DNA from: Geosiphon pyriformis
Taxonomy: Eukaryota; Glomeromycota; Glomeromycetes; Archaeosporales; Geosiphonaceae
Length of the DNA: 64,000 bases
Assembly (NCBI GenBank): GCA_016748015.1
Contig: JAAOMT010000003.1
Span: 1,549,365 to 1,613,364, forward strand
Reading direction: 5' to 3'
Below are positions 1,550 to 62,918 of the stretch, in pieces; the first letter of the stretch is position 1, and every line of letters starts with the position of its first letter. The notes beneath the pieces were generated by a model that had not been told where the DNA came from, did not search any database, and was given only the letters and a program-made list of their open reading frames with translations. Position numbers and translations under genes: made by a program.

Positions 1550-2153
1550 ATAACTTGTATAGGGAAAGAAGGATTTCTATATTAATTCAATCTAAATCAC
1601 ATTTCTGAAAAAGGCTAAGACTTGCAACGTTAGAATATGAAAAAAAACTTTGAAAATAGGCAGTTCCCGGATTTGATATTTTTTTAACGGATAGAGGATT
1701 ATTTTAAAATATAGCCTCTTATCAAAAAAATTCATTTTTTAATGATAAATTAGCTGTCACTTTGAAAGACAATATAAATAAAATCTTGAAACATATCTGT
1801 TGTTATTATTATCATATTCCTGTAGAACTGAGCTTTATCTAAATTGGGCCGCAACAATCTTAATAATTTAACCCCGAGATCTACAACGTTACAAAGAAAC
1901 AATACTTAACAAAAATAGACCATCTTCTCATTGTCTCTTCAGCACACAATGCGGGGTATTACTGACAAATTGGCAGAACTCGGATCATGTACCACCTTTT
2001 CTTTGTTTTGTGCCTATTTAGGGATCAATGAGAAGTTTTCTATAAATATAATTGATTTTTTAGATTCAAAAAATAACAAAAAAACCATCTAATTTCAATA
2101 ATAATATCAAAAAATCCATTAAATTTCAAAATAAAGAATCATCGAATTTCAAA

Positions 2154-40192: not shown

Positions 40193-43170
40193 GATGGCAA
40201 GAATTGGATTATTTAATTCCAAAAATTAGATAAAAAGATTCTCTTGATTCACGAAATTTTTACGCATTCCTTGGACTGGAACAAGATATTGCGATTTATT
40301 AGTTTTTGAGGTGATGATCATCTACTAAATGGTGATGGGGGGGGGAAGCACTTTAATAATTGCTAACGCGGAAAAATTGGTGTGATTATGACTAATTGAG
40401 CTATTAATGTCAACAATCAGCAACGATCGTAATAGAAAGAATGAATCGGCAAACACCTCCGAGCTAATTTTTTGCCTGATCATCTTATCTTGTAGATGCA
40501 GGTCAATCTAAAACTTAGTTTGTTTAATTTAAAAAGTATCATTGGTTTTTACTTTGTGTAACGAAAAGGTAAAAGGCTTGGTCGGATCTTTAGGTTTTCC
40601 TATTTTGAGATGGATAATCATACTTGTCGTGAACAGGTATAATGGCAAATTTAGCCAAAAATTTTAAGGATCGTTTAAAATTTATCATCTTTCATAGATT
40701 TATTTCATAAAAAACTGGCTTTTTTGTGAAAACGAACTTCGAACAGGCCATTTAAATTTGTCTAGGAGAGTTCACACGGGTAAAAAAGATTAAAACGTTT
40801 TTATCAGATCACGCCAGTATAATATGGGGGTACAGGTAAATAAGAATTATCATAGTCATATGACCGTCCATCGTATCATTGATTCCCAATTAGATTGTCT
40901 TTTTTTGACTAGCTTCTCCAAGGCGATAATGGGACTTCTAATAATTGGTATTTCTGATCGATTCTTGTTTATCAGCTTTCAATCATAACTTAAACGATTG
41001 GTCTTTGTTAGAAAAACCAATTGAGGAGTAAAAATACCAATCTGAAAATAGATTATGATAATGATTTTAATATATTTCTTATTTTTACTGTTACGATTTT
41101 ATCCTCAGATTTCAAGCTCAATTCGAGCTTTTGAATTTCTTTTATCCAGAAATGACCAGAAATTCAAATTGTGCCCCTCATTTGAATATTTCTTGTCTAT
41201 TTGTAAATTACACTCTCCATTACTACAACTTAATAAAAATATTTATCTCAAAAACTTTTTAATGCTTTTTATTAAAAATACAATTAACATTTTTAACACA
41301 TTTTATTTTTTTTTACATTATTTTGTTACAACTCTTTTATTTTTAAATTTTTTAAAAATCTAATATTGTATTTTAATTAAACAAACAAACCATTTATGAT
41401 ATAAAATTTGTTTATAATAATGTTATATATATGACAATACTGTTTTAAAACATAAAATTATAACTATTTGAAATTAATTTTCAGGTAAAAAAATCAAAAT
41501 CAAAATCAAAAGTTAAAACATCAACTTATAATCAACATTATTTTTAATTTTTATAAATCATAAAAACTTTTTCTATTAATAATAGCCATTCAAAGCACAA
41601 AAATTATTATTAATTTAATAAAAAAAGCACATTTATATAAATTTAAAAATTTTATATAACAAATTTTTCAAAAATAGAATATAAATAAAAAGTCTTTACT
41701 ATTGGTTTAAGTATTAAAATCTTTGGGTTGTTTTTCAAATCATTACTAACATATATTATGTGTATTAACTATTATATTTATTATTAAATATTTATATATA
41801 TAAAAATGGTTGTTTTGAAAAGAAAAACATCTCAACATTTTATTTATTTTTTAATAGTTTAATTTCACATGTTGCTTGGATATCAAATACAAACAAAAAA
41901 CCTTTTTGATGAGTGTCATAAAAAGGCAACATTATGAATATTAAAAATATTCGATGTGATTATTCTGTAATTTAATTCAGATTCAATGGTAAAAAAAAGA
42001 GACAAAATATATATATCTTAGGTCATTGACAATTTAATCGACAGATTGCTTGACAATGGAGAAGGGGAAAAAAGTGGCAGATGTAAGTGGCTCAGTGCCA
42101 AAATTTTAAATTGGTAATAGGTAGAGATTTCAATGGCACCCAAAAAATCTCCTTGAAATTTTTTTTGCCTGATGGGTTGCACACACAAGTGTATGGAGTG
42201 AAAAACACTCATCTGACTAGTGTTGATTCGTTTAAACCCATTCGCATTAAGTAATCATAAAATAAAAGATTTACCAAAAGCCATCGTCTGAAAAAAATTT
42301 GCAGGGATTTAAATTTATAGGTTTCATAATATGAAGAGTGATGGGAATTTGGACATTAAATAATGTTTTCAGGCTTCAATATCTTGAAAAAAAAACGGTT
42401 TTTTACTATGGATTTTTTAATTTGAAATCAAACATATGTATCAAAACTCCTTCGGTCACTAATATATTCAGAACTATTGTTTTTATTCTTTAATGAGTTA
42501 GAGTATGATTATGATTTTAGAAGAAAAGGTGTAAAATTCTGTATGTGATCATAATAGAAAATTCATAAATTAACGAAAAGCTACTTATGTATTAGAAAAT
42601 TTTCATTGGAAGCAATTTCTTTCTCATCCGTTTTGGCAAATCTCATAAAACTTTTTTTTTTGAACCTTTGACGATAATTTCAAAAGATATTCACGAGACT
42701 AAAATTTTTTAGCTTTTTTCTGATTTGTTTAACTTAATAAAAACATTTACTCAATGATAGAAAATATGATGAAACACGATTTTTATGAACAAATAAAAGC
42801 TTCCCAAAAATTCCAAATGAATTTAAACTATTAAAGAATTTATTTTTTGAGATATTTTCGACAACTTCTAAATTAAAAAAAAAAGAGCATGTGTTTGCTA
42901 GCGAAAGAAATCAAATTTGACATGGGTAAAAAAACGATTGTTCACAATCGTGGAGCGTTTTTGGGAAAAAAGATCACAAAATAAATTGGTCCCTTATGAA
43001 CGCAATATATTTACTCAGCGTATTTAAAAAAAAACAACGTTCTCTAGAAGAGGGACTGTCGGACACGGAATTACTTGACCGATGATTTTCTATCTTAAAA
43101 TAATCAACAACTTTTTGCTTGAAAATTTAATTATATTGGTCTGAAGTCAAAATCCCGCTGACATATCTAA
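40193..43170. other. Intergenic, no supported gene
   Basis: The open frame at 41055-41363 is hydrophobic but its Leu/Phe/Ile-rich text follows from AT composition, and it has no motif. 42018-42212 shows nothing. A G8 run is at 40339. Between 42900 and 43170 a few short open stretches may be 5' parts of the unidentified coding segment that follows. Confidence 0.45.
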
Positions 43171-43228
43171 GAATGACTACATTTCGCATACCTCAATTTG
43201 CAAATGAAAATTTTGCAAGCTATATTAA

Positions 43229-43819
43229 GAGTGTTATTTCACGTGGGATAATGACGATTATGCTCCTACACTCCCAGTTCTTAGAAACAAAAAATTTGTA
43301 TTCATTTTGGAATTGTCGAAGAATCACGCAACTGTGTATTTAAGGAAAATCAAAGAAGCTATTAATTTTGGTTTTGTTTGGGTCCGAGAAGACAAGGCTG
43401 GTTTGACGAGAAGCAGATATTTGAATAAGGTTTTTTTTAATTCAAAATTCTTTTATTATAATAATTTCTTCTTTGAAATCTAATGTGCAAAATTTATCAT
43501 TCTAAGCTCATAAAGTCTCTATTTGGGAATAATGATGGAAAACTTTTATGCCTCACAAACTCCACACAAGAATATAAAAAGCATTCTTAAATTATGATAA
43601 ATTTAAATAAACAAAGGTTTTGTGAAATTTCTCGAACTTATTTTATATATATTATAAAAGGTGTTACCAAAATTTACAAAAAAAAAAATTTATGATGTTC
43701 ATATTTATTTTCCACAACAGAGTACTAAATACGTATGCTTGCTCTTAGCCATCATTAATACACCGATCTCTGGTGAGGATTTTGATAATATAGCAAACAA
43801 ATTCCTATCAAATCACAAG
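43229..43819 (+). CDS. Unidentified two-exon coding segment
   Basis: Two adjoining open blocks read like real protein and join in frame. Block one is 43229-43429 (YAPTLPVLRNKKFVFILEL, then VWVREDKAGLTRSRYLNK). Block two is 43661-43819 (VLPKFTKKKIYDVHIYFPQQ, then IINTPISGEDFDNIANKF). The join uses a GT donor after AATAAG and an AG acceptor after TATAAAAG. Block two ends at a good donor (AAG/GTAATG). Its phase-0 continuation would run into the AG just before the lipase-like gene's ATG at 43886, so it could be that gene's 5' part, though I think a separate or truncated gene likelier. Another frame just upstream (43171-43255, MTTFRIPQFANENFASYIKS) suggests more exon or a frameshift. I recognise no family. 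Gene, gene fragment or relic remain open. Confidence 0.35.
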
Positions 43820-43885: not shown

Positions 43886-45328
43886 ATGGCATCCAAAAGA
43901 AGCACTTATTGGAATATAAAAACTTTTTTAATTGCTTGGATTATTGGATTGATCATATTCAGAATACATGTATATGGTAAAGGGAAGCCTTAAAAATTTA
44001 GTATTATTTTAGTAGTCTGCTAATTATATATTATATATTTAAAATTTTCAAAATAATATTTGAAGAAAGCTTTTCAAGGACTAAATTAAACTTGTTTAAA
44101 GAGAAGAATTCGGCGATAGAACATATTGGCTCGACTGATTTCACCTCTAAAATATATTTCAGCAATGAAGAAAAACAAAATAGCACAATCATCATCCGAT
44201 CACGAAAAGGGCTGGATGGTGTTAAAACGGAATATCCCAATCAGTTTATCGTACGAGACCATTTACCGGAATATGCATGGTGGGCAATGCGATCGTATTG
44301 CCTCGATGGAAATAATTTAGTTGGTCCAGGAGTATACGGTTCGTCATTTTAAAAAGTTTTTAGGTTTATTCATTATTGACTATAAACAAAATTGAATCTT
44401 AATCTTTTGAATTTCAGCCAAAGTTGTTGTGCGAAACTCCAAATTAATTCTCATGGTAAAAGGCGAATCACTTGACAATGAAAACTACTGGGAAAAACGA
44501 GAAAATCAACTCATCGATTATCCAATACTCTCTTCAAAAGCTATTGGAGCAAAAGTCGATAAAATATTTTATAAAAATTTCAAAAAAATACGCAAAGCTG
44601 TGACTAATCTTATTTTAACTGCTCTCCGGAAACATGAGGTCGAGATTATTATAGCTGTTGGACATGGATCAGGTGGAGGTAACATCTTGAATCTTTTTTA
44701 AAGTCACTCACTTTGATACATAGAAAAATTCTGGTGATGTTCTTGTTTCATTATTTTAGTTTATGCAATCTTGCAAATGTTAGAATTAGTCAAATTAAGT
44801 ATGACGGTGCCTTTGAGGGTTTGCACTTTTGGCCAACCACATCTAGCGAATCGCGAGTTTTTTCAACAATTTAATAGAATGGCGACCAATATCAATGAAA
44901 TTTTATTAACTCGAGTGACGAATATGAATGATTATGTCCCAAAGCTTCCTGAAAGTACAATTCGAGACTTTTACGTACAAAGCCCCTCAGAAATTTGGAT
45001 TGAATCTGATGATTGTCAATGTGCTACTGGAAAAGTTTACATATGTCTTGGACCAAAGTTTTTCCAAAATGATGGGTCAGTTATTCTTCAGGAAAATCAG
45101 GTTTAGTTTTTGATGAATTTATTTAATTCAAACGAAAAAATATCCAATTTACAAAATTTTATCGATTTTTAGGATTGCAATGCTCAATTTTCAGAAAAAA
45201 ACTTTGCCCCACATAATGGGCCTTATTTTGACTACATGATGGGGAAATGCTTAGATGTACCACCACCTTGGGATATAAATTTTTGGCAAAAACTGCGCTC
45301 GAAATACTTTAGAAACTGGTATTTATAA
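43886..45328 (+). CDS. Class-3 lipase-like protein, Ser-to-Gly (copy 1)
   Basis: Exons: 43886-43976, 44066-44338, 44418-44678, 44760-45100 and 45173-45328; about 373 residues. The first join (acceptor TTTGAAG) is the least certain; later joins fit the paralogues exactly. A signal-anchor-like helix is near residues 9-30. The alpha/beta-hydrolase core shows LILMVKGESL, the elbow IIAVGHGSGGGVYAIL, CTFGQPHLANREF, TRVTNMNDYVPKLPES, SEIWIESDDCQC and a C-terminal GPYFDYMMGKC. In class-3 lipases the elbow is GHSxGG with Ser as nucleophile; here it is GHGSGG, with Gly at that place and Ser one residue later. The Asp of NDYVP is kept, but the His six residues before the Trp of EIWI is Gln. So two of three triad residues are missing. 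It is probably a membrane-anchored or secreted non-hydrolytic protein. The family call is sure, the function unknown. Confidence 0.82.
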
Positions 45329-46831
45329 ACATTTGATGAGTAATTAACTAATAAAAATAATGTCTTCCATACTCATAATTTCCTAATTTCAAAAGGAAAT
45401 TAATGGAATGATTATATTTTTCAAATAAACAATTTCAAAGTTAAATATTTGAGTAGCTATTCTTCGCGATATTAAAATAGAAATATTTATAACACATGAA
45501 TAAACCTAAAGTAGTATGAGAGTTTAAATATTTTTAATAAAACTAAACTCAAAATTAGTTAGGCACTTAAATTCTTTTTGAACTCTAAACCCAAGGATTC
45601 TTTGTTTGTAACTAATGTTTTGAGAGATAATTGTCTGAAATTTTATTTTTAGTTTCAAATTTAGAACCTCATTGGAAATTTTTGTGAAATTAAAATACCT
45701 TTGCAATGGCAACTGAAATCAGGCCACTCCAATCTCCAATGCATGGAAGGCTAGTCATCTTAACTACAGTGATTTTTCAAAGAGTTAATAGCAGTTTGCT
45801 GCTCTCAAATTCCAGTTTCTGTAGAAAAATGACAGTATACCGCATACTTAATGTTTTAACTTATTAAAATTAAAAATACTTAAGAATTTTTCAAGCCTGG
45901 AATAAGTAAAGTTTCTTCTGTGAGCAACTACATATGATTCACAGCTGACTTTCTTTGTTATTGAAACCTATTAAAGAAACAAAATTCGATCCGATCTGTA
46001 GTCCAAAAATTTTTGTTTTGATCTTGGAAAATATTTTGAGTGGTTAATACTCATTTTATAAAAAAATTTTTTTTTTTTAGCTAGAAATACTCCAAGCTAA
46101 GGTTTTTTTTGCAAGTATTAAATTCGGGAACTTTATGCGAAAATATTCTATAAAAATTTAAATCTTTCATTTTAAAATGCGGGAGGAAAGGCTCAATGCT
46201 TATAATTAAAAGTTTTTATAAATATTTTCGTCAAAATGCTATTTCTGATAAAAATATTTAACATGATTTGATTAAAAGCTATTTTGAAAATAACTCAACT
46301 GGCTCGTTTGAAAAAAAAATTAGGTTTTGTTTTTAAAATATTTTTTGGTGTCACAATTCTTTTAGAAAAAATCGAATTTGGTAAAGAAAATTTATTAGTT
46401 TGAACCAAAGAAAAGAAAAATTTTACCAAACTGAAAATGTTTTGAAATCCTTTGAAATGATAAAAAAAAAATTTTTTCTTTTGATCTTTATCAACTTTCG
46501 AAAGATGAATTGTCATTAGGGAATTCAACGATTATGAAAAATGTTTCTGAACAATTGGTTTTAATTGTCAAACTTTTTCAAATGCTAATTTTTAAAAATA
46601 ACTACATGTAGAATTCTGGTAGCTCGAGAATATCAGAAAATTAATCAAGTCAAATCACTATCAATTTTAAATTATAATTAAAGGACCAATCACAGTAGCA
46701 TTTTATGATACATTCAAGAAACCCAATCATTTTTTTAAAGCGAATATCATCATCAATTCAAAAGCCCTCCTTTATCTTATATATATATATAAGTATCATC
46801 ACATTGATAAAATATATTTCAGCGATGAGAC
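45329..46831. other. Intergenic, no gene seen
   Basis: AT-rich spacer between lipase-like copy 1 and the BTB relic. Frames at 45524-45712 and 46295-46528 have no motif. Confidence 0.55.
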
Positions 46832-47640
46832 ATGACTTGTAAAAATATAACTTGTGATGATCGCATTGTGCTAAATGTAAGGTAAGAAAGCTTTTCCTCG
46901 AGATTCAATAGCAATTATTTGCTGCGCGAAATATGGTAAATCGAATCAACGTTCTTAGTACGAAACTTTTCGCTTAATATTAACTGCGCGTCCTGACACT
47001 CTCCTTGGGAACATGTTTTCTGAAAGAAATAAAAGCATGCCTAAGCCTACCAAAGGCAATGAATATTTCTTTGATCGTGATGGTCATGTATTTCACTACA
47101 TAATGCAATATTATTGTCTTTTGCAAAGTCATATGGCCCCCTACCCCAAAGTGATTAAAAGACGAGCTCCGATATTTTCAAATTTCTTTTATTAATTCAC
47201 AATCAATCGACAGTCAGGAATTCGAGCTCGCTGAGGTAGTTGATGAATTTGTGTCGGCTTTAGAAAGCCTTATTAAAGGCTATGCGTCATAATTTTCAAA
47301 GTGAAGTAACCCTAAAGTGCTATGAGCGACTTTAGAACCGCCACAGGGTTGACAGGGTCACAAAATCAAGAATAGTTCCACATTTGAAAGATTCGTGCAA
47401 ATTTTAGAAAACTTTGACCTCGCGGCCTATGAAATACTCAAAAGATTAAGCTCAAAGATTATTACCACCTTGAGAAAAAAATTCCAAACGTGGATATCAA
47501 TATTGATTCGAATGAGATGCATACGGGTATGAAATATGCCTTTTTCAGTGTGAGAGCTAGGGATTCATATGATAATGATAGGATCCTTTCTCAAAGCTAT
47601 CTCAAAAATTAGAACGTAAAATTGCTCTGTTGCTGCCAAA
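46832..47640 (+). pseudogene. Frameshifted KCTD-type BTB copy
   Basis: A second BTB gene in pieces. DDRIVLNVR near 46856-46882 is followed directly by a donor (GTAAGA), but the GG of the family's NxGG is lost, which puts the join out of frame. After the acceptor (TTCTTAG, about 46954) come YETFRLILTARPDTLLGNMF and then KGNEYFFDRDGHVFHYIMQY. A frame change follows (CKVIWPPTPK, then a stop), with later fragments EFELAEVVDEFVSALESLI near 47218-47275 and FVQILENFDLAAYEI near 47400. The intron sits where the intact gene at 37391-38365 has it, and the C-terminal pieces match that gene's layout, so they are paralogues. Multiple breaks show this copy is dead, although much of the text is still recognisable, so decay is fairly recent. 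Confidence 0.75.
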
Positions 47641-47884
47641 CGAACAGCAATTTTAAAAAATCGTGTCCTTAAATTTTTGAATAAACTAAGGTTCCATCGA
47701 AACTATTTCGCTTTTGTTGAATCATTTGATTAGAGACTACAGGAAAGAATCCCAATTGTTAACATTTTTATAAAATTAGAAAATTCCATGAAAAGATTGG
47801 TTTTATCAAATATTTAGGCTTGCTCAATTAACATGAAAATCAATTCAAATTCGGCAGTGTCCAGAAATATAGAAAGTTTAATAT

Positions 47885-49334
47885 TCATAAAATGTCAACC
47901 GTACAAGTTCCCATCATGATACCCATATATGGTCCATCATGTGGTTTAAAATTTCTCGTTTTATATTGATTATTGCACAACTAATTTTCAAAGGCAAAAT
48001 GAAATTTTTTTAAATATTGGTCCATCATAACAAAAAATAAACTTTACAAGGCAAATAGGGGTGATTGCAAAAATACCTGACTTTCTTCAGTAAAAAGAAC
48101 CCCATCATTCATAGTAGTTGGTCCAATACATCCAAAAACTTTACTCTTTGTACAATCACAATCATCATTAGTCTCGATCCAGTATTCTACAAATGGGTGA
48201 TGGTACGGTATAAAATCTAAGGAAGTGTGAACAGGTAACTTTGGAACATAATCGTCCATATTCGTTAGTCGGACCGCATGGAGCCCCTTAATTTCGTTAA
48301 GATACTGGGCAAATTTCTTATCACCCATATGAGGCTGTCCAAAAGTTATTAAAGTGAGAACAATGTTGAAATTTAGCGTGTAGATTAAATCCAAAATTGC
48401 AAAAGTTGCATATACTAGGTTATTGAAAATTGAATCAACGTTAATTGAGCAAAGTTACTTTTCAAAGAAGATGGAAAACTTGATTTAACAGATGGTTCAG
48501 GTAAACTGAGAAAGTGCAGTTACTTACCGCCACCAAGCCCATGACCAACAGCAACAAAATTTCGAGCCTTTCCTCGCAAAGAATTCAAAACCATCTTAGA
48601 CATCTTATCCTGAGTTCTCAGATAGTTTGTATAAAAGAATTTATCCACCTGAGCTCCAACAAACTTGGGATATTTTATAAACTCATTTTGTCTATTTTCC
48701 CAGTCCTCTATCGCTGATTCTCCTTTTACTGTCAGAATGATTTCCGAACCATCAACAAATATTCCAGCTGTAAAAAGCAAAGAGTAAGCAAAGGTTTGCT
48801 TTATTAAAAATATTTAATTTAAAATGTATTTTTTGGCAAATTACCACGTATTTCCTGACCCAGATTTTTTGTTTCAGTTACACAATAAGCTTTCATTGCA
48901 TAAATTGCGTATTTTCTTAGCTCTATTAATTCTAATATGGGTAGAATTTCTTTTTTCCCCAATAGATCTGTTGTTTGACTATCAATTTCGTTAATTGTTC
49001 TTCTCTCCAAAATAAATCTTTTAATCTTTAAAGAATCATGTTTTAAAGTAGAAATTGAAGTGTTGTTGCCGCCCTTTGAAATGGAAGAAGTAACAGACGT
49101 GGTGCTTAAAATGAGTTTGGTATTATTATTTTTTCGAAAACTTTTAAAGATTTTTGATGTGAATAAAATTTCCTGATTTATTTTATGTTGAGAAAGTGGG
49201 TCAGTATTTTTCCAACTAACAAAATTTATTGTTATCTCTGTCAACAGTAAGTTAAGTAATAAATTCACGAAAATCAATATCAGCACGCAAATCAAGGCTA
49301 ATGTTGATGAGTAGAAATTTTGCGATGATAACAT
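47885..49334 (-). CDS. Class-3 lipase-like protein, Ser-to-Gly (copy 2)
   Basis: Exons: 49334-48845, 48767-48528, 48414-48077 and 47980-47885; all joins keep frame, and the product is 387 residues. An N-terminal signal-anchor lies at about 10-32 (STLALICVLILIFVNLLLNL), followed by a Ser/Thr-rich stretch to about 125. The hydrolase core has EIILTVKGES, FVAVGHGLGGGVYATF, LITFGQPHMGDKKF, VRLTNMDDYVPKLP, HHPFVEYWIETNDDCDC and a final DGPYMGIMMGTC. The elbow is GHGLGG, so the lipase nucleophile Ser is Gly. The Asp (DDYVP) and His (six residues before the Trp of EYWI) are conserved. The intron after the elbow Gly-Gly is phase 1, as in the other copies. It is convergent with copy 1, with the BTB relic between them. 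Intact and well spliced, it is probably expressed; substrate or ligand unknown. Confidence 0.87.
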
Positions 49335-49881
49335 TACTTTTTTGATTTAATAGGTGAAAACGATGTAAAATAAATAGGTTGGGTATTTTATACAATAAAA
49401 AATTTAAGGTATTATTATAACTTTAATTATTGAATGCTAGAAATATGTTACTTTTTAAAGATTGTTATTTTAATAATTAAATAAAGCAAAAGGTAATGTA
49501 ACACGCTGCCAGCATCGATTTTATATATATGGATTGGGACATGCATAATTAAAGGATGATCCTAAACACTCTTTCTGTGTTTTTTTCTTGCATGAGTAGG
49601 CTTTATTTTGATCGATTCGTAAGAATTTAAAACTAGAAACGAAACGAGAAATTTCTCGAGAATCTATTTTTATTTGGTTATTATCTTATCTCCATCAAAT
49701 GTAAACATCTTCTGTCACGCTTAATATCTTTTTTCAGCTAATGATTACCTATTTAGGCTAACGTATTCGTATATTTTTTTTCTTTGAGTGAGGTTATATT
49801 CACAAAAGAAGTCATTTTCCCTTGATGATTAATTTCAGATATTTTTCTCACAATGGGAAAGAAAAATGGTCGGGAGCCTAA

Positions 49882-50136
49882 AGGCTTTTCATCGTAATAA
49901 CTTCAAAATTCCCAAAATACATCACATCTACGGGTTATGACGATAGATCTCTGTTTCTCGTGCGATTCGACATCAAATTTGGTATCAATCCTGCTTATCC
50001 TGATACTGTATATTTAAAATTTTACATGCACAATGAGGATAATTTTCCTCATGCCAATTTTTTCATCTGTTTACGTCATACTGGGAAAATACACATAAAT
50101 GGCAGTCGCATGTGTTTCGCATATCAAATATCATAG
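49882..50136 (+). other. Orphan stop-free protein-like segment
   Basis: Eighty-four codons without a stop, but no ATG near the start. The text is protein-like (RSLFLVRFDIKFGINPAYPD, then HANFFICLRHTGKIHINGSR), and G+C is higher than in flanking DNA. It may be an exon or a relic; I recognise no family and see no clear acceptor. It lies about 120 bp from the pogo-type fragment, so it may have come in with a transposon. Confidence 0.25.
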
Positions 50137-50256
50137 GCTGAGGTCGTGATTTTATAAAATAGGCTTTAAAAAGTTTTGTTTTATATGGAGCGTGCTGCAA
50201 TAAAGCCAGACAAAGTGAATGTCAAGCAATTATGGCTTTGGTTATTGAAAAGGGAT

Positions 50257-50520
50257 TTATCTTTTCGCTGGCTTCTCAGCACTCAGAATATTGCTGTTAT
50301 CCCGGCTGTCATAAAGGAGATATTCGTCTTGAATTACTTTACCTAAGAGCTGGGTATAATGTTGAGCCGTCGAATACGTTCCTCTCCGGTGCCCAATAAG
50401 GAGATCAACCACACCACAAGAGGAAGAGATGCAAAAGCGGCGATGAGCGTTTGCTCTTTTCAGGGCATCCATCATTCTCTCGTCTGACCACTTTCTCCTT
50501 TTCCTCGCAATGCCAATCAC
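50257..50520 (-). mobile_element. Pogo/psq-type transposase N-terminal fragment
   Basis: The minus-strand frame begins with ARKRRKWSDERMMDALKRAN. This is the form of the psq-type helix-turn-helix that opens pogo/Tigger-like transposases (K-W-S/T-E-E-x-M-x-x-A-L-x-A-V). Shortly after comes VVDLLIGHRRGTYS, like the TLRDRLxGR box that closes the psq motif, but the linking helices are altered, probably by indels. No DDE catalytic domain follows on this strand, so only an N-terminal fragment remains. Host psq-domain proteins also exist; a transposon source is the likelier reading in this setting. Confidence 0.45.
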
Positions 50521-53500
50521 ACAAGGTACAACCTTGCAAACGAACTCCTTTTAGTTGTGACACCAGAATTGGTTACCCGCGACTCCATTTGAGATGAATG
50601 AATATGGTAAGGAAGGAGATTTTGAATTTTTGAATTTCCCTGACTTCTTTATTCAATTGAAAATCCTTTGTGACCCAGTGTTTTTTGTGGAAACCTTGAG
50701 CATGATATAAAAAGATTATCAGAAAATCATTTCTAATCAGGGGTCAATGAGCTATTTTAATTGGCGAGATTTATATAAACATTTGTGGAGGTCGTTATCT
50801 CGGGTCAACTAGTTTTTTTAAAATCACAGATTATATCTCGGATGTAATCAAATCTCATACCATGTTTGAGAAAAGTTATAATAAAATAAAATATAAAAAA
50901 TCTTTAATTCATAATCTAAATTTTAGTTTTGAATCAAAATAATGAGTATTTTGCATATTTCAAATAAATTGACTAATACTACCTTTTTAGTGGATATATT
51001 TTCGAAAAAGGATACATTCCATTCTTTGTAATACATGATAAAAATTAAATTCAAACAAAAATGTAAATAATTATTTTTATTTAGTGGAGCATTTGAAATT
51101 TCGAACGAAATGTGGTAAAATTTCTAAAAAAGATGCCCAAAACAACAGTTTAAAAATTGGATCAGCTCCGATTCATGTATGTTTCAAAGATTATCATTAA
51201 AAACTGTGTTTTATATTATCTTATCTTGCTGTAATTTATTGGACATATTTCAAGTTCTTATTTTCAAAAAATTATGCTTTCTCAATTTCTTTGTAGAATA
51301 ACAACAAGACTAATAAATATAAAACGAATAAGGTTTATGTAAAGCATTAAAATGATTCAAACTATATTAGATTTTTAAGAAAATAACCCAGTTGTTAGGA
51401 AGATTATATTTAATAAAACTATTTATTTTAGCGCTACAAAGAATTTCAGCAATGCAGCTGTATATAATATCAATGATTTTCATTGGATTAATATTTTAAA
51501 AAAATTATAAATTAAATAAAATTTTTATTTTTATTTATATGATTGTAATACTAATTTCTTAAAAACAAGTTTCTTTAACTTTGAATGGTCTAAAAAATTT
51601 GATTCACATAAAATAGCATTATTTTTAAAAAAAATTAATCAGCTTCATATTTAAAGAATTTTAAAACATAACCAAATATTCTAATTTTTTTTTTAAGGAT
51701 TAAATTTCGAAAACTAATTTTAAAAGCTTCAAAGTTTTATGTTTTTAAATAATAAGAAAGCACTAGATAAAAAACACATTTACTATTTATTAAATTACTT
51801 TACAAAATTTTGTGAATTTAAGATATAAGAATATAGTTAGAATATTAATTAAATCAAAGAATTAATTTAATTTAGAACCATTTTATTAATTAAGTTAAAT
51901 ATAATCCATCTGGAATAATGGAAGTGATTTTATTCTTTTATCATTTAACCATTATAAAGGATAGTATCGAGTGAATAATTATGAAAGAAAGGAATTCCTA
52001 TTGAATGTTGAACCTGTATAGTATATGCTTCTATCCAGAACATTGTGAAATTTTTTCAGACCGAATTTTCTATCAGATGTTCTGATTGATATTTCAATTT
52101 TTATTTTTGCTTTGGAGATAATGGCATTTTTTCTAATATTTTGAAAATTGATCAAACATAATTCTGTTTGATTTGCTCAAAGAATTTATCAATCACGTAT
52201 CACGTGTTACTCTGAATTTTCTTGGTCAGATCTTTCAGGAATCGAGTTAATCACTAATAAAACTATCAATTTTAAAACCTTAATAACTTGAGAAAAATTT
52301 ATTTAATTTGAAAATTTGTTCTGATATTATAATAGAACTCAACCTAATATGTCTTTTATCAGGTCCAATTCAAATTATTTATAATTTTGGAAGACTAGAT
52401 ACATTTAAAAATTAGGTAAGATTTCTTTGATGACTTCAAATGTCTTGTACTATAGCACTTTTATAAACTATAAAAAATTAGTGGTTGCTTCTTTTTTACT
52501 CTTCATTTTAGTTTTGATCATAAAAATTACAATATTTTATTCAAAATAATATAATAATTGTTGAAAAAATTTTATAAACTCAAATTAGATATTTTCAACT
52601 TTTTTTTATAAAATATAAAATTTATAATTAATTTTCATTTAATAAATATTCTAGTTAAATCCTAAAAATTTAATCAATAAAATATTAAAACTTTTAAGCT
52701 AAAAATTTTAAATTTTTTAACAAGGAATGCTGAAAACAAAATTATTTAAGTTTCTGTCTAAAAAAGCATTAGTATGCAGCAGAATATTGCTAAGACTATT
52801 AATTTTTCTCATATAAGCTTAAACAATGTTATTTGCAAGTTCAAAAAGAGCTTCAGAAATGAAAGTTACTTTTTTTCAAAATTACTTATCCTGAATTTTT
52901 CTCAATATTTTAACATAATTCTAAAGAGATTATTTTCTTTTACAATTTGTAAGAATTTTTTTTATTTAACCAATGTCATGTGAGACAGCTCATTATCGAT
53001 AATTCTAAAAACTTATTTTTCCAATAATTTAGAAAGAATGCAGAAGCCATATTATAAATTTATATCTGAATCAAATAAAGTTTTGATTTCAAAAAACTTA
53101 AATAAAATTTTTAATCTCTAATTTATATTCATTAAAATATTTTTGAAAAACTAATTTCAACCTGAATTATTAAACATAGCTTATCTTTTAGTTGGTATTT
53201 TTTAGAATGAAAAACATTCAAGATATGTTTTCTGAATATTGTAATAAATTATTTTAAAATTGTCAAAATTAATTTTTTTTCTAAAAACTTATAGTTATTA
53301 TACTAATATAAGTTAGTGAAATTGGAATATTTAAATAATTACTTTGATTCAATAAATTATTGCGGCTGGAACATAGTATCATAATACAAACCAATTAAAT
53401 AAATTAGGTTAAGAAAAGTCCTGATTGCATTTAATCTATTTAAATATTTGGATTGAAACTGCCAGCATAAATTTCTACAGTGACAAAATTTATAAAAAAC

Positions 53501-54810
53501 CAGAATACTCCAACCTTTTAATTAATAATAAAAATTTTTCAGATTTGAACTTTAAGTAGAATGTTTAAAGTTTTATTACTAATAAATAGAGGCAAAATTT
53601 TTTCTCTCAAATATTTATTTTATGAAGCATTTGGTCTAAAAATTGCGAAAATATTAATAAGAATCAAAAAATCTTGTTTCATCAAATGTTGAGCATTTAA
53701 TAAAAGATAATAAACTCAAAGAAATTTAATCACTGTTTAAAATAATAGGTAAAATTTATTAGAACTTATATAACGGGGATATTCCTGATAATTTTTTATT
53801 ATTAATGATTTTGTTATTGATTTGACACTATTTCTCGAAATTGGAATATTTCTGTCTCTTAGATTCTACGAGATGAAAATTACACATTTTTATTGTTCTT
53901 TGTTTTATATTTTCGATTAATTTGATTAATTTTATTTAAAAACGATATTATCTATTAGTTACCACTACTATCGTTGATAATTGGGTATTCTAGAATTGAA
54001 CTAATCTTTCTTCATCCAAGGTTTGAAATGGAAATTGACTCAAATTGTAATTTTTGATTAATGTTGCTTAATTTATCAAATAATAAATTTTATTAAAAAG
54101 TAATCTTAAACAAATAAAGAAATTTCTCGTTGTACATTTGAAGGAAAATTTTGTATGGAATGCATTAATGGGCAACGGGGCATATTTGAAACTCATCCCT
54201 TGAAAGTTTAGCAAATAGACGGTTCTATACCAGTTTCGGCTTCCCATTTATCTAAAAAGAATCGATATAACCCCCATATATGAAACATGGGCCACAAATT
54301 TTAGCTCCCAGGTTTTTCCATAATGAATCAATTGGGCATTTTATGCTCAACAAAATTAAAAATTAATATTTAGTCAAATGTCATATTACCATGATGTGCC
54401 AAATTCCAAGATATCGTGGTTAAATTTTAAACTTATAACATAAAAAAATCTTTACCTATCCGACTATCTCCAGTTTGTAAGTTTTCAAATGAATTTCTGA
54501 AACGATCTTACAAAGAACTTATCGTCACTTGGTTTTTGAGAAAGGGACCTTGATTTTGTTCAAAAATTTATTTTGCTGAAGTGTTTTACATCCAAAAAAA
54601 TTGAAGCTTTAATATTCATCAAAAACTAACTTTTCTTTCTTGAATTAATAAATAATTAGCAAAGAAAATATTCAAATAGAATATTTGTTAACAAATTAAT
54701 TGTCTTAATTAAAATTCACAAACCTAATTGTGAATAAAAATGTAACCTGAAGAAAATTTCTACTAATTGAATTCAATAAAAAATCCATCAACATATCAAA
54801 AAGACTATTT
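50521..54810. other. AT-rich intergenic stretch
   Basis: More than 4 kb with no supported gene. The open frame at 52774-52983 is AT-composition text. A slightly more G+C-rich patch at 54160-54330 has no open frame I can interpret. Confidence 0.55.
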
Positions 54811-56147
54811 TTAGGTATTTCTTTTAATATTTATTTCCTTGGCTTTTGTACTTGATGATATATTAACATTTGGCAAAGGATGATTCGGCTTAACTTGTAT
54901 CGTCTTAATCAAAGAATTTAAGGTCCTGCTTTTATAAAATGCCTGTCGATGAGGAGCTTTTGAATTTTCCGGCTCCTTCGGTTGGAATTCATAGACATCT
55001 CGATGCTCGGGATGGTTTTTATCCAAAATTTCTGAAAACAGATTTTTTAAGTGTTCAGCAGTTGGTCTTTTTCGTGGATCCGCAGCCCAACATTGTTGCA
55101 TTATATTGGAAAAGAATTTTGGAATGTTTTCTTGTATTTTTGGTCGAAGGCCATTACATATTTCTTGAATTAGATTTGCATCATGCTTTTTATGACAAAG
55201 GTATCTTTGTATTGAGCATGCTTCCCATACCAGGATTCCAAAGGAATAAATGTCTGAAAATTTTGATTTATTATGATTATATTTTTATATTTTAAAAACT
55301 TTATCTTATATTTGTAAATTACATACCAGACGCTTGAGTAAATGGCTTCCCTTGTAGAACTTCCGGTGCAATATAAGGAATAATGCCGAACACATCCTTA
55401 CTTTTATTTCGTTCCTTTTCTGTACGACACTGGGCGAACCCAGTAATCCATGCCCAATTAGTTGCCGATAGCATTATATTGCCAGGATGAAGGTCACAAT
55501 GAACCAATCCTTCTCCATGAACACTTTTTAAGCCGTCAATAATTTTGAATAACATAAAAGACGGTAATTTCCAGGCGTAGTCGTTCATTGTTTTGTCCGT
55601 CATGCATGGCATTACTAAAATAAAGTTTCTCGTAATTGGATTCTGGGACAAACCGAAGCATGGTATTATAGCATTTCCACTTAGGCAAGCTGATTTTTCA
55701 ATCTTGATTCATTTTAAAATATTTTCTTTTGAGAAATATGAAAAATATGAAAATACATACTAAAAATAAAAGGACAAAAATACATACCTCATTAAGAATA
55801 GCATCCCCAATTTTACTTGAGTTGAAGATTTCTTTTAAAGAAACCATTTTCTGTATCTCCCCGTTATTCTTACTTTCGTTTGAATAAAACAAAATTATCT
55901 TTTCACCGCACTCCCAATTTCTTACACCTTGCGTGATGAATTGAATTTTTTGTAATTTTTCGAATGGAATCCATTGAAACCAACGACCATTTCGTTTCTT
56001 CAACAGTTTTCTTTGAATTTCTTGGAGAAGGTTATCAATTTGTGGAATTCCACTCTGGTGAATTGGAAAGTCACATGGGGGACATACTGGTTGATTTATT
56101 GGCAAAAGATTTTCGCATTTAGGGCAAATTGAATTGTTTGGAGACAT
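54811..56147 (-). CDS. Kinase-like protein, degraded DFG motif
   Basis: Three exons, 56147-55788, 55702-55327 and 55253-54811, keep frame and give 392 residues. The second acceptor (AATCAAG) is inferred from frame. The N-terminus has C8-x2-C11 and C22-x2-C25, a small zinc-ribbon-like pair seen ahead of many Glomeromycotina kinases. The kinase fold follows: a weak Gly-loop region (FITQGVRNWECG), VSLK105, ILNE120, AIIPCFGLSQNPITRNFILV, a catalytic loop LVHCDLHPGNIML (188-200), YIAPEVLQGKPFTQA, DIYSFGILVWEA and QQCWAADPRKRPTA. HRD is HCD, with the Asp kept. The magnesium-binding DFG is GFA (208-210), so the metal-binding Asp is lost. Relatives here usually have DLG or DFG. A pseudokinase is likely, or one with unusual metal use. 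The tail (about 310-392) is polar. The fold is sure, inactivity is inferred. Confidence 0.85.
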
Positions 56148-57844
56148 TTTATCTGAGTTTCTTATCAAAGCTAGTGTTTTTTTTTGAAATTGATTTTCGA
56201 AAATTCGCTGTAAATATTATATACCAAGTTAAACAGAATAGTTGGAAGGGTTTGGATTGTAACAAAAAAAAGATCTCCCAATATGAATACCTTATATGCA
56301 TTTTCCATAAAAATCGTTTTGTTTGAAATAACGTTGTGCCACATTGAACACTAAAGGTGAAGTATTATCAAGTCCACAGAATTCTTTTAATACTAATTAA
56401 GACTAGCAGTTTATTTAATTTCTGGAGATAACTTTCAAAGAAATGTTGGATATATTACGTTCCAAAGAGCTATAATCTTATTCTTAACATTACTACTAAC
56501 CTAATTCGAGGATTTTGGTCAATTTCCATGAAAAGGTTTTCTAGATTTTTTAGCACAGTTCTAAAAGCTGGAAAAGATTATTCTATTCCTTGCTCATGTG
56601 ACTGAGAAAGTTAATCATTTAAAGTCCATCACTCAACCAATTTAAATGAAATGTAATCTGAATGACAATTGGGAACGTGAGCAACATGTCACCGATATCT
56701 TGTTTTAATATCTTAAGATGACAACAATTGAATTGCATTAGAAAAAAATTCAATCCGGGTGGAATACTTGCCTTCTTTAAAATTGAACATAAACTGCGTT
56801 TCAACTGCACAACTTTATTTATTTCAGATTGTTATTATTATTGAATCTGTAAAAACAACAACATTGATCCGCTTCTCTTTTTCATAACTCAAATCAAGTT
56901 TAAGCAATTTTTTAGTTTTAAAAGTTGATGTATCTTTTAAAGAGTTTTTGCCATCCAACATTGTTCATCCATATGACACATAATGGAACAAATTGTAAAC
57001 TGTGGTAAAAGTAGAATTTAAAGAAATATGCCTTATAAGATTTATATAAACTTAAGAATTAGAATAAATAACATTATAAATTCACTGTCAACAATAAGTT
57101 TAAATAAGATATTTTTTATGATATTAAGTTAAATAAATAAATAAATTGAAAATTATATTTCCTAAAAATAAGAAATTTGCATGATAATCATAATTCCTAT
57201 TCAAAGATATTTTTAAAACTAACTTTTAGTTATTGACTTCAACAAATATTTCAAAGTTTTATAACACTTAATTAATGAATTCTAAAGTAATACTCAGTTA
57301 ATATATAAGATACTATTTAAATTAAGGAGTTTATAAAAATGTTATTTTCAAAAAATATCATCCCTTTTGAATAATACTAAAAAAATTTGACTCAACATAA
57401 TTTGAAGTTTTTGAAATACGCTTTTTTCTAAAAATATTATTTTTTATCAAGAAAATCTTCGATTATTTACATTATATATTTTTTAAAAGTGTAAAAAAGA
57501 TATATTATAACTTTTTTGCAAATTATTCCTTTGTTCTTTATTCACAACTTGACAAGAGAATTATCAAAGCTCCTTTAAATTTCCTAAAGTAGAAAAGGTC
57601 TAATTTTTTAGAATTCTTTAAAATATTAAAAAATAATTTAATATGTGAATTTTTATAATATAAAATATAGTTCAAAAGCGGATTAAATGATAATTCTTTC
57701 CGGATTTAGAACATTCCTTATTGGGTAATACTCTTGGTAATCTTAAATGAGATAATTTTTGTTTCTTCTCATTTTAAATTATTATAAAAGAATAGCTATC
57801 TTAACGTCAGTGACATTGTTATGTTGACTTGAAATAATTTAATC
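56148..57844. other. Intergenic, no gene seen
   Basis: AT-rich spacer upstream of both the kinase-like gene (minus) and lipase-like copy 3 (plus). The two are divergent, so it holds both promoters. No motif was recognised. Confidence 0.55.
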
Positions 57845-59167
57845 ATGTTACATAAGGGGGAAATGTTTTACATTTTGAAAATTTTTTATAAATTTCATAT
57901 ATTATTAACAATTTTTTCATTATTTTTACTCTATTCTTATAAAATTTCCAATAAATTTTTTTTTTCAATAATTTCAAAATCAACATCTGAACAAAATTAC
58001 TTTTCAAAAAATTTGAATCAAAATTTATCCAATTCTATTTTATTTCAAAAACGAAATAATTTACCTTTAAATTCAAATGAGGGACGTTTTATTGGCCAGA
58101 ACGCTAAACTTAATTTAACCCCAAATCAACAAGGATATACCGACCTAAAACTTTCTGCTTTCTATGCTAGCACGGCCTATTGTTTCCACAAAAAAACACA
58201 CGAGATTGCTGATGGAGTTTATGGTAAGGTTTAGATTTTTTTCTTCTATTATAAATATGAATATCAATTGTATTATGCCAAAAATATTAACAATTTTTTT
58301 AAGCAAAAGCTCAGATTATTCCAGATGAATTTGGTAAAAAGGTCATTATGGTATCTTTTAAGGCAGATTTTCCTAAAACCTCTGAAGACTGGAAAAACAA
58401 AATATTCAAATTCGATTCAAAATTTGCTGATGTAAATGGTGCAAATTTTGATTCGGAATTTTATGCAAGATATAAAGCTTTCCAAGAGAAATTAATGTCA
58501 AAAATAATACCAGTTTTAAAAGAGGCTGAAGAACTTGGACCTGATATTGTGTCTACTATTCGATTTGTTGGTCATGGAATGGGGGGAGGTTGGTCACAAT
58601 ACTTTTTTAGATATATTATAAAAATATTGAGAAATTCTTTAGTAATTATTTTTTGTTATAGTTTTTGCATATTTAGCGGGATACCATATGTCTTTGCCAT
58701 CAACTAATCCCTTCAAGAATGTGATACATACTTTTGGTCAACCTCGTATTGGAAATCTTCAATCCATACAATCAATGCTTGCTAAAAAATTATCTGTATT
58801 CCGTGTTACGCACATGAACGATTATCTACCTCGTCTTCCAGAAAGTAATGCATTTTTGCATCCTCCATTTGAAATTTGGATTGAATCAGATTGCAATTGT
58901 TCATCTAATAAAGGTATTGACAAGGCTTATCTTTGTTATGGCCCCATTGACACATTAACTTATACTTATACTGAAAGCAATGTAAGCATAAGAGCAAAGT
59001 TTTTTATATTTAATATGCATTTTTTAAATTTTTAACTTATCAAAATTTTCTAACGGTTTATTAAGGAATGCATTAATGCACAACCTCTTAAATCTAAAGT
59101 TGCACATCTGGGTCCTTACTTTCAGCTTATGATGGGAGAATGTCCACACTTAGAGTTTGAAGAATAA
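57845..59167 (+). CDS. Class-3 lipase-like protein, Ser-to-Gly (copy 3)
   Basis: Exons: 57845-58223, 58304-58588, 58662-58981 and 59066-59167; 361 residues, all joins in frame. A signal-anchor lies at about 9-38 (KIFYKFHILLTIFSLFLLYS). The hydrolase core has KKVIMVSFKADF, IRFVGHGMGGGVFAYLAGY, IHTFGQPRIGNLQS, FRVTHMNDYLPRLPES, FLHPPFEIWIESDCNCSS and a final LGPYFQLMMGEC. The elbow is GHGMGG, with Gly at the nucleophile position. The Asp (NDYLP) and the His of FLHPPFEIW are in place, so only the Ser of the triad is missing. The paired Cys near the Trp strand (DCNCS) and the Cys in the last exon suggest disulphides, fitting a secreted or lumenal domain. Intron positions equal those of copy 2. 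I see no sign of decay. Confidence 0.87.
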
Positions 59168-61461
59168 GTGTGTATACTTTTAAAATGATCAAAACTCTTT
59201 AAAATTTTATAAAAATTAATAATTTTTTTTTCATTAATCAAAATGATTAAATCATTTATCATAAATCACACTTTGTAGTTAAGGAATAATTTGATTCGAT
59301 ATTGGCTTTTCATCATTTATTAAAGTATTCTATTAAATCTTCATATTTTATAATTTCTTTGATAATTCATTGAAAATTTCTTAAATAACTGGAAAACATC
59401 TATATTTATTTTCCCTAGTATGTTAAATTATTCTAAAAACTTTCCAATAAAAATATGCCCATTTAGAAATTTAAAGACTCTGTTTATTAGATTGATATTT
59501 CTTCTGAGCTATTTTTACCAATAATTCTACTATTTTTGAATTGAAATCTATTAAAAATTTATTTTGTTAAGATAAACTTCAAGCATTACATTGTAGCTAA
59601 AATCGAAAAAATCTAATTAAATTTTTTAATAAAAATATTTCAAATTTGTTTTAAAAGGCAAATAATTTTACTGTTCAAGTTAAATTCTCAATATAACAAT
59701 TGAGTTTTTATCAAAATTTTAACGAAAACACACTTTATTTTATTTTATTTTATTTAAACTTGATAATAAAATTTGAATTAAATATATTTATTTTTAACAA
59801 AACTTCAATTGAAATTGTTTTTGAAATTGGAAAATTTTCAGATCAAAACATTGAATTATCCTATATCTTTTTAGCCAATATTTCATAAAGAATTAAAATC
59901 TTTAATATTCGGTTATTTCCCAACTATTTATCAGCTTTACATTATAATTCATTTAAAGTTAAATCCTAAAAAGTTTTTGAGATATATGTTTTATCAAGAT
60001 TTCGAAAATTTTAAATTTTTTGTTTCTTACTAAGAAATTTTCTATTATTTGTAAAAACCATTGAATGTTGAGAATATTATATATTATATCAAAATTCTAA
60101 TGATGCTTTCATCTTTAATTCTGAAAAAATTGTAATTGATTATCCCAATTAAAATTCTGATAGACTTTTGATAGCATTAATTTTTTAAACAGATTTTCCT
60201 GATAGCTGATTTTTGTCAAAAAATCATTCTTATTTAAATTTCCTAAATATTTCAAGTATACATATATATTAAATTATTGAATATAAAATTAGTTATTATT
60301 CTTCGGGCTTACTAATTCATAACATAATGTCAAAAATAAATATTATTTGCAACTTTTTAAATATTTCAATTGCAGAATTTAAAAATTTTCAATATAAAAA
60401 AACCTAATAATCAAAAGTTAAAAGCTTAGGCCTAATTTCAAAAAATAATACAAAATTTTTAACTTAATAAATCTGAATTTTTCACAAACAAATAATTGTT
60501 ATGAATAAATAATTGCTTAAATTGATAATCATGAATTTTTTCAATATATAATATTGCTATTCAATTATCATTTTAGACATTTTTTTATATAAAATAACCT
60601 AATTTTGTAATTTCTCAAATAATTTATTGCTGAGAAATAAAATATAGATTTACATATTTCATTTGATATTGATGAATTAATCTCAAGTTTTGAATCATTA
60701 TAATTTATTTATAATTTTAATTAAATTGATTATTATTTTAACTTAGTTTTTATTATATTAAATTTATATTAATTAGAATATTAAAAAAATTGCTTCTTTT
60801 ATTCCCAAATATTCAGGTATTTAATTTTTCTTCTAATCATGCTTTTTCATTTCCTAATTTATGGTGGAACTTAAAGTCGAAAGCTTTTGGTTGAGTTGCA
60901 GGTTTTAGACAAATTTTAATTTTTATAAATTATTAATATAAAAGTTTTGATTTGGTTGCCATTGGTATTTGGAATGGTATGATTGCATTTTTACTTTCAC
61001 AGGAATTGGTGTATTTTGCGGGTATACATATTAATAAAAATAGATTGTAAAATCTCATGAATTTCATGATAAATTTCGAAAATGACTTCGAATTCATCCT
61101 ATCGTTATTTGCAAACAAAGAATGAATTTATTGGCTTGCAATTTACTATCTATGAAAATATTTGGCAGCTATACATTTTAAACACTTAACAGTTTATCCG
61201 GTTAATATAGAGTTACTTAATACTTTATCTTAGAGAATTATATTGCATTGGGAAATATTAAATGTTGAGATAGCCAAAATTTGAATGATCTTCAAATTCC
61301 ATACTGGGTCATTGGCCATTCGAAAAAAGATCCCTTTTTTGAGGTAAAAGTTATAAAAAGAAGGATTGAAAATTTCAAGTCAATAAATAACAGTACTCGA
61401 ATAATCAACAGGATTTTCTCTAAATGGATATTGAAATATATATTTTTTCCGTAAGAAAGCC
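59168..61461. other. Intergenic, no gene seen
   Basis: AT-rich spacer. Frames at 59700-59888 and 60933-61118 show no motif. Confidence 0.55.
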
Positions 61462-62918
61462 ATGATTCTCAATCACTTTAGGGGAAAAAAGAAAGGGTTC
61501 TTTACAAGACAAATTATATTTCTTTTCATCCTTATTCTAGCTACTCTCGAAATTCTTATCAATAAAGTTGAAAAATATTACTTAATTGGAGCAAAATTAG
61601 CTGAAAATAGATTAAATTGGTCAAATAATCAAGACTTTTCCTATTTGTGGCCAGAAACACTCCAAAATAATAGAACTTTGAGTAAACGTGAATTAATAGC
61701 AGCTGGCCCCTCAAGAGGTTTTGGTGGCAGATCTAAAAAAATTCCTCCTAAAACACTAGTTACAGATCCGGAGATAATAAATTTATTAAAAACGATGGCT
61801 TTCTGGGCAAATATGCCGTATTGCACTCCGAACCGGAAGGTTGCAAAAGATTCCCTGGGAGTAATTTGTAAGGAACATCTCTTTTTCAAGTTTGTAATTA
61901 TTTGATTCAAGGAAAAAAATTTTAAAGCCTAAACTTTAATATTAAAAACTTTTTTTTGCCATGAAAAGGTGATATTTCACTACAAACAATAGAAAAAAAG
62001 GAAGGAATAGTAATATATTTCCGTGGTTAGTTTTGTAAAACTTCTCATTGAATTCACTATAATTCCAGCTTCAATATTTTTTTCTTCAAATTAAGGACCT
62101 GAACTTACTAGAAAGCAATGGAATGATAGAAAATTTAATTTAGACTCGGATCGTAAAAAAGATTCTTGGCCGGTAGATTCTCAATGGAATGAAGTGACCG
62201 ACGGTGCCGTGGAAGGAGTGTTAAATGGAATTAAATACTATAGTTCCGAATTTACTGGCGATACGGTGTTCACATATTTTACAGGCCATGGAATAGGAGG
62301 GGGTAATGTTGTATTTAAATTTGTGCAAATATAATAAAGTAAAATTGATTTTTATGTTTTTTTGGATTATAGTATATGCTCAATATATAGCTAATATACT
62401 TGCAACGATGTCGGAACGCAAGAGAGTTGGTAAACATCTCGATGGTAAAAATATGGAAATCACAGTTGTTACATTTGGACAACCAAGAGCGGGAAACTTT
62501 CAATACGCAGAGCGTGTAAATGCCCTCATGAGGTCGAAATTTCTCAAAATCTATCGCGTGACTCACTCAAATGATCATGTGCCACAGCGACCATATTTAA
62601 AATCGACTTCAAAGCCTTGGTTCCATACCGATCGAGAATATTGGATTTCATTGAATTGTAATTGTTCGCAAAAAAAAGCGCCTGAATATGAACTTTTTGA
62701 ATGTCCAGGATATTCTAAAGCTGATTCTGAAAAATACGGAGAAAATAAGGTAATTCCCTCAAGTTATTTTTTTTCGAAAGTTTGACTTTATATTTATTTT
62801 ATGATAACTTTAATAGGAATGTAATCTTGGTACTGACGGTGCAAGTAACACAGCTAATTATGGTCCATACTTTGGAATCACTTTTGGAAAATGCGATGGG
62901 TTTTTTCCATTGAATTAG
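61462..62918 (+). CDS. Class-3 lipase-like protein, Ser-to-Gly (copy 4)
   Basis: Exons: 61462-61867, 61969-62025, 62096-62302, 62373-62749 and 62817-62918; 382 residues, in frame throughout. A basic start and signal-anchor lie at about 1-36 (FFTRQIIFLFILILATLEIL). This copy keeps the clearest lipase N-terminal core: PEIINLLKTMAFWANMPYC and then IVIYFRGPELTRKQW, like IVVAFRGT of active lipases. The elbow is FTYFTGHGIGGGVYAQYIAN, then VVTFGQPRAGNFQYAERV, IYRVTHSNDHVPQRP, WFHTDREYWISLNCNCS and YGPYFGITFGKC. Nucleophile Ser is Gly (GHGIGG); Asp (NDHVP) and His (FHTDREYW) remain. Like the others it has a phase-1 intron right after the elbow Gly-Gly, plus one extra intron inside FRG. It lies 170 bp upstream of the broken fifth copy. 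Probably expressed; ligand unknown. Confidence 0.87.

Follow-up and report, generated by a model that had tools for sequence, protein, structure and literature searches.

The closest described relatives of the genes that we report here are the fungal secreted class-3 lipases, represented by Rhizomucor miehei lipase (1tgl), Thermomyces lanuginosus lipase and feruloyl esterase A. In a 64,000-nucleotide stretch of Geosiphon pyriformis contig JAAOMT010000003.1 (hereafter the window, always meaning the whole stretch), we describe four genes, A to D, that encode proteins of this fold with a glycine in place of the nucleophile serine, and a genome-wide family to which they belong. In a structure-sequence comparison that covered window genes D and B, both match the solved structures of these lipases, and in the alignment of gene D the nucleophile elbow falls opposite GHALGG of 1gt6, a Ser-to-Ala mutant, and GHSLGG of 5ap9. 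The family shares with the fungal class-3 lipases the Lipase_3 domain, the G-H-x-x-G-G frame, a TFGQP-like strand, the positions of the catalytic Asp and His, the EYWI motif and a Cys-bearing C-terminal segment, but differs from them in that the nucleophile Ser is replaced by Gly, the oxyanion Ser/Thr is mostly lost and VHxGF has mostly become VDxx(F/W). The window genes differ further in having an extra C-x-C, an N-terminal hydrophobic segment and a long spacer.

Hydrolase folds are known to serve purposes other than hydrolysis. The plant immune proteins EDS1, PAD4 and SAG101 use the class-3 lipase fold for signalling; they are intracellular, belong to small families and carry an EP domain. 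The canonical Geosiphon paralogue L005 (loci are cited by our L numbers) weakly matches PAD4 and SAG101 chains (E 1.6e-4 to 3.2e-4), and gene B weakly matches a PAD4 chain (E 0.033), but the EP domain has no counterpart in the window proteins, in which Lipase_3 was the sole domain above cut-off in a Pfam scan and which end 5-25 aa past their last Cys. Neuroligins and other cholinesterase-like adhesion molecules, and the Drosophila yolk proteins, use a hydrolase fold with the nucleophile Ser replaced for adhesion or ligand storage; these belong to other alpha/beta-hydrolase families with few copies per genome. Expanded pseudoenzymes beside active paralogues, as in the Geosiphon family, are described for the inactive GH28 proteins of leaf beetles (PMC6549527), although the enzyme family and fold differ. 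Our literature search found no description of a serine-less Lipase_3-type family, the paper on the Geosiphon genome (Curr Biol 2021) lying outside what the search returned.

Four intact Lipase_3 genes with a glycine elbow

The original prediction, made from the letters of the window, was of a cluster of intact, spliced class-3 lipase-like genes lacking the catalytic serine, and our profile search bears this out for all four (Table 1). Genes A-D score 57.9-66.6 bits against the Pfam Lipase_3 profile (PF01764; cut-off 22), with E values of 1.4e-15 to 2.8e-18; their splice sites are intact, their spliced frames contain no internal stops, and the nucleophile residue is Gly in every one. The first intron of gene A is uncertain, the exon at 43886-43976 being one of five possible readings. 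Directly after the elbow each gene has a GT..AG intron in phase 1 (exon end G|GT), the conserved intron that had been predicted, and the elbow lies wholly inside exon 2 of the family, so that splicing of the next intron cannot alter it; an alternative splice that restores a Ser elbow is thereby excluded. We also rejected a serine shifted by one place, as might be read from GHGS in gene A, since the fourth elbow residue varies freely across the family. All four genes carry the catalytic Asp, in a D-(Y/H)-(V/L)-P loop, and three (A, B and C) the catalytic His (H-x-G-P-Y), counts that agree with the first reading; gene D has Asn in place of the His. The oxyanion Ser/Thr that follows R-G is absent: in the alignment gene A has Glu, C has Asp and D has Pro, and gene B has a gap at this column, where we read Glu by eye. 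Two further traits, shared cysteines and an N-terminal hydrophobic segment, are seen in all four proteins, as six Cys at places that match by eye and a hydrophobic stretch within residues 10-36 (best 19-residue mean 1.81-2.96).

Table 1. Lipase_3 genes of the window and their nucleophile elbows
Feature	Position in window	Strand	Exons	Product or remark
Gene A	43886..45328	+	43886-43976, 44066-44338, 44418-44678, 44760-45100, 45173-45328	373 aa; Lipase_3
Gene A nucleophile elbow	44660..44677	+		GHGSGG
Gene B	47885..49334	-	49334-48845, 48767-48528, 48414-48077, 47980-47885	387 aa; Lipase_3
Gene B nucleophile elbow	48529..48546	-		GHGLGG
Gene C	57845..59167	+	57845-58223, 58304-58588, 58662-58981, 59066-59167	361 aa; Lipase_3
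Gene C nucleophile elbow	58570..58587	+		GHGMGG
Gene D	61462..62918	+	61462-61867, 61969-62025, 62096-62302, 62373-62749, 62817-62918	382 aa; Lipase_3; catalytic His to Asn
Gene D nucleophile elbow	62284..62301	+		GHGIGG

Size and spread of the family

Our search of the genome of G. pyriformis (Glomeromycota, Archaeosporales; 124.7 Mb in 406 contigs) identified 319 GHGxGG sites, compared with 21 for a reversed-pattern control, and 58 GHSxGG sites, compared with 7 (17 versus 4 with TCN codons, 41 versus 3 with AGY codons). With any residue at the nucleophile position, 877 GHxxGG sites were found versus 379 for the control, a count in which the excess beyond Gly and Ser is taken as a whole. The Lipase_3 profile gave at least 163 exon matches with 150 of 748 candidates scored. 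When individual places were fetched, 29 of 30 with GHG (L009-L038; the exception is L015) proved to be family exons. We fetched 47 places with GHS, a set outside which 11 of the 41 AGY places lie; among them, 6 of the 17 written with TCN (L039 weakly) and 28 of the 30 written with AGY are family exons, L078 being the same gene as L008. Extrapolation from these figures puts the copies that have exactly this motif at about 310 with Gly and no more than 45 with Ser, very roughly 350 in all, possibly including doubled stretches of the assembly. L028 and L029, for example, have identical printed exon 2 letters and lie 22 kb apart on opposite strands of contig C96; they may be a recent duplicate or an assembly doubling. 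Pseudoenzyme families this large seem to be rare.

The glycine is not a sequencing or editing error of a single kind, in agreement with the original prediction, since all four Gly codons are used at the nucleophile position of 50 readable family copies (GGT 22, GGA 16, GGC 6, GGG 6), and 22 of these (GGA and GGG) are not one base change from Ser. The claim of a cluster in 19 kb stands insofar as the four genes are there, but the family is spread genome-wide. It is clustered as well: 58 of the first 100 GHG places listed have another listed place no more than 20 kb away (random expectation 9.7%), and their neighbours are about equally on the same (22) and the opposite (20) strand.

A sample of 24 loci (L086-L109), picked by the exon behind the elbow and not by the nucleophile, and chosen by hand down the list of Lipase_3 matches and not at random, also has mostly Gly: 17 have Gly (two in GFG and one in GDG), 3 have Ser (two in GFS), Ala, Asn and Asp occur once each, and one, L103, has no readable elbow. 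Among the eight top Lipase_3 scorers (L001-L008), Gly occurs in 2, Cys in 1 and Ser in 5; Ser thus tends to go with the most lipase-like copies. One of these Ser loci, L006 (C368:383251-383685), is a different Lipase_3 protein outside the family, with GHSLGAAL in a frame that runs uninterrupted for 350 aa. Rare nucleophile residues occur in otherwise family-like copies, namely Cys, Asn, Ala and Asp in L003, L095, L097 and L100, and the copy with Cys could be active.

The remaining active-site residues

Chaining of exons by profiles gave 97 rows after removal of eight duplicate chains (one row is a second reading of L064): 52 with Gly, 40 with Ser, and one each with Ala, Cys, Asn, Asp and an unread residue. 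The catalytic Asp is kept in 50 of the 52 Gly rows, the other two having Asn, and the His in 44 of the 48 Gly rows in which exon 4 was found, all four exceptions again being Asn; the corresponding figures for Ser rows with a letter at these positions are 38 of 39 for Asp and 32 of 36 for His. When the 197 filled columns are ordered by conservation in the Gly rows, Asp is 17th and His 21st, and the cysteines, the glycines and Asp/His are near-invariant at deep divergence.

Other parts of the hydrolytic apparatus have fared differently. At least five canonical paralogues (L004, L005, L007, L008 and L057) retain Ser, Asp, the oxyanion Thr and VHxGF, as well as His where exon 4 was found. The oxyanion column, which corresponds to Ser82 of R. 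miehei lipase, and the VHxGF motif were counted only where a row had 60 aa or more of exon 2; for the oxyanion count we further set aside rows with a gap in that column (10 of the 49 Gly and 1 of the 26 derived Ser rows). Ser or Thr occupies this column in 5 of 5 canonical rows (Thr), 1 of 25 derived Ser rows (Ser, in L088) and 4 of 39 Gly rows, in which Pro is the commonest residue (14/39). The His of VHxGF is likewise kept in 5 of 5 canonical and 9 of 26 derived Ser rows, but of 49 Gly rows only one keeps it and 32 have Asp instead. Nearly all readable derived copies, the Ser ones included, are thus without another hydrolytic part besides the nucleophile. Because the oxyanion residue and the VHxGF His are mostly lost in the derived Ser copies too, we read Ser there as tolerated, and not as proof of activity.

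These counts bear on two alternatives. An Asp-His dyad might still do chemistry with Ser gone, using water or a substrate hydroxyl in the vacated space, and in favour of this, Gly copies retain Asp and His no less strictly than Ser copies do; but the oxyanion Ser/Thr is mostly gone, the residue most often found there in Gly rows (Pro) has no backbone NH, and the His exceptions in Gly rows are all Asn, which leaves this alternative improbable. Alternatively, the Gly copies could assist or regulate the few true lipases without being catalytic themselves, pairing with or shielding the canonical Ser paralogues or their substrate. The coexistence of canonical paralogues in the same genome would allow this, and the inactive GH28 copies of leaf beetles, which share a pathway with active ones (PMC6549527), provide a precedent; very roughly 350 derived copies for five or six enzymes would, however, be a poor stoichiometry for a regulator, and we regard a partner role as unlikely.

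History of glycine and serine

The original prediction held Gly to be ancestral and maintained. Maintenance agrees with the constraint on the family core described below, but a single ancestral origin is not borne out by the tree, which comprises 93 rows, has two structures serving as the outgroup and was built after masking of the nucleophile (in 90); the second reading of L064 (L064_p1319) and the poorly filled rows L039, L026, L016, L041 and L023 were excluded. Every Gly row falls within one clade of 85 (support 100/94), before which six canonical Ser rows (L063, L004, L005, L007, L008 and L057) branch off. Within this clade Gly and Ser are intermixed: 17 changes (16-18 over the bootstrap trees) are required to explain Gly, well-supported branches force no fewer than 9 of them, and none of 200 bootstrap trees unites the Gly rows. 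The label is nonetheless clustered on the tree (17 changes versus a shuffled mean of 31.1). The window genes themselves occupy three branches, one with A and B, one with C and one with D.

Close copies can differ at the nucleophile, for example L056 (Ser) and L031 (Gly), which are 83% identical with omega 0.45, and L040 (Ser) and L024 (Gly), which are 70% identical; such pairs also speak against residual chemistry by an Asp-His dyad. A one-way loss from Ser to Gly is strongly disfavoured relative to a reversible model on the quick tree (lnL -58.5 versus -52.1) but only weakly on the careful tree (-52.8 versus -50.7). The Gly/Ser rates themselves mean little, because the sample holds most Ser places but only about 50 of about 300 Gly places. 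Under the reversible model the base of a 28-row clade is Gly (0.99-1.00), and if this is so, the eight Ser rows inside that clade would have regained their serine.

Selection on the core and the lid

Comparison of nonsynonymous with synonymous divergence among copies, a check proposed with the original prediction, agrees with a maintained core. In 44 pairs with dS below 1.6 (Nei-Gojobori; second reading of L064 left out), omega is 0.28-0.93 with a median of 0.45, and in the 25 Gly-Gly pairs among them it is 0.28-0.73. Uncorrected pN/pS pooled over nine pairs chosen by hand is 0.59 overall, 0.26 in the Asp loop, 0.27-0.43 at the elbow and 0.30-0.54 in the His segment, but it rises to 0.90-0.99 across the lid stretch and what follows it, and to 1.07 in a stretch ahead of the elbow strand. 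The core of the family is constrained and the lid stretch near-neutral; the fast stretches, the lid and its neighbours, would be exposed on the protein surface.

Decay, in which relaxed lipase copies are on their way to becoming pseudogenes, is very improbable on these figures. It could draw on the unreadable elbow of L103, the high omega of some pairs and a weak match to family exon 3 just upstream of gene A (43152..43241, + strand; score 13.8, iE 0.031), which may be what is left of a dead copy. Against this, the window genes have open frames and splice sites, pN/pS is well below one at the Asp loop and elbow, and the cysteines, the glycines and the Asp and His have stayed near-invariant despite deep divergence. 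A repertoire for self/non-self or symbiont recognition, or of decoys, in which balancing or positive selection would act on the lid and the surface around it, would fit the high copy number, the clusters and the fast stretches, but no segment has a pN/pS clearly above 1 (maximum 1.07 in the nine pairs), and we give this reading little credence.

Protein location

The location proposed for the window proteins can be followed into the wider family. A match to exon 1, with an A-x-x-Y-C type motif, occurs in 43 of the 52 Gly rows, 33 of which have the fitting Cys, and a Met followed by a hydrophobic stretch is present in 19 of these 43, many loci being too short upstream. Judged by hydropathy, the family proteins would pass through the secretory pathway, with the segment acting either as an anchor or as a cleaved signal.

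A lipase fold probably turned from hydrolysis to binding

Taken together, we consider the most probable explanation to be a birth-and-death family of secretory-pathway, Cys-bearing, non-hydrolytic proteins of the lipase fold, in which Asp-His would be a structural or ligand-contact pair. The family would descend from secreted class-3 lipases and would have lost ester hydrolysis save in a handful of canonical paralogues. In the first step the oxyanion residue would have been lost, and because of this loss the nucleophile Ser, then without catalytic use, would have been freed to change. Gly suits the strained turn of a nucleophile elbow, and this turn may accept Gly or Ser interchangeably. The Asp-His pair (or Asp-Asn) would be retained as a hydrogen-bonded pair that holds the C-terminal segment, or as a contact in the pocket. 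The proteins would enter the secretory pathway by their N-terminal hydrophobic segment and probably remain anchored, and the old lipase pocket or the lid surface would bind lipids or partner molecules, a role that we infer because of the fold, the likely location and the fast stretches. Binding or sensing, and not the digestion of fat, is the probable task of the Gly copies, and the family may serve this cyanobacterium-harbouring fungus as a repertoire for recognition or lipid capture. The fuller proposal, that very roughly 350 membrane-anchored pseudo-lipases with a nucleophile switching between Gly and Ser over a near-constant Asp-His form a diversified surface for recognition of lipids or symbionts, is a tentative one that we think rather doubtful as a whole.

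Several observations weigh against a non-hydrolytic family. A minority of the derived copies retain Ser, and the four Gly copies noted above still have Ser/Thr at the oxyanion column; Asp-His as conserved as in Ser copies would also be expected from residual or altered catalysis; and omega reaches 0.93 in one pair, which would fit relaxed constraint.

The loss can be dissected within a single genome, which has canonical enzymes, Ser copies without the oxyanion residue and Gly copies side by side, and the question of why Asp and His outlive the nucleophile becomes testable. If it binds lipids, it bears on how this fungal lineage, which reportedly lacks a fatty acid synthase of its own, handles lipids derived from its partner; a search of the genome with the fatty acid synthase profile PF18325 gave no match, a weak result as the profile was run without a fungal positive control. 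In addition, counts of "lipases" in Glomeromycotina genomes, given as a mean of 189 in PMC12574304, may include many proteins unable to digest anything.

Other genes in the window

The window also contains a Sel1-repeat gene (2064-3053), a BTB_2 gene (37391-38137) and, at 35163-35759, a small protein with a TMEM154 match below cut-off. Among the lipase-like genes lies a kinase-like gene (54811-56216, - strand; PF07714/PF00069) in which DFG apparently reads TGF (..AWITGFAQC..) and the Asp of HCDLHPGN is retained, and which is possibly a pseudokinase beside the pseudo-lipases.

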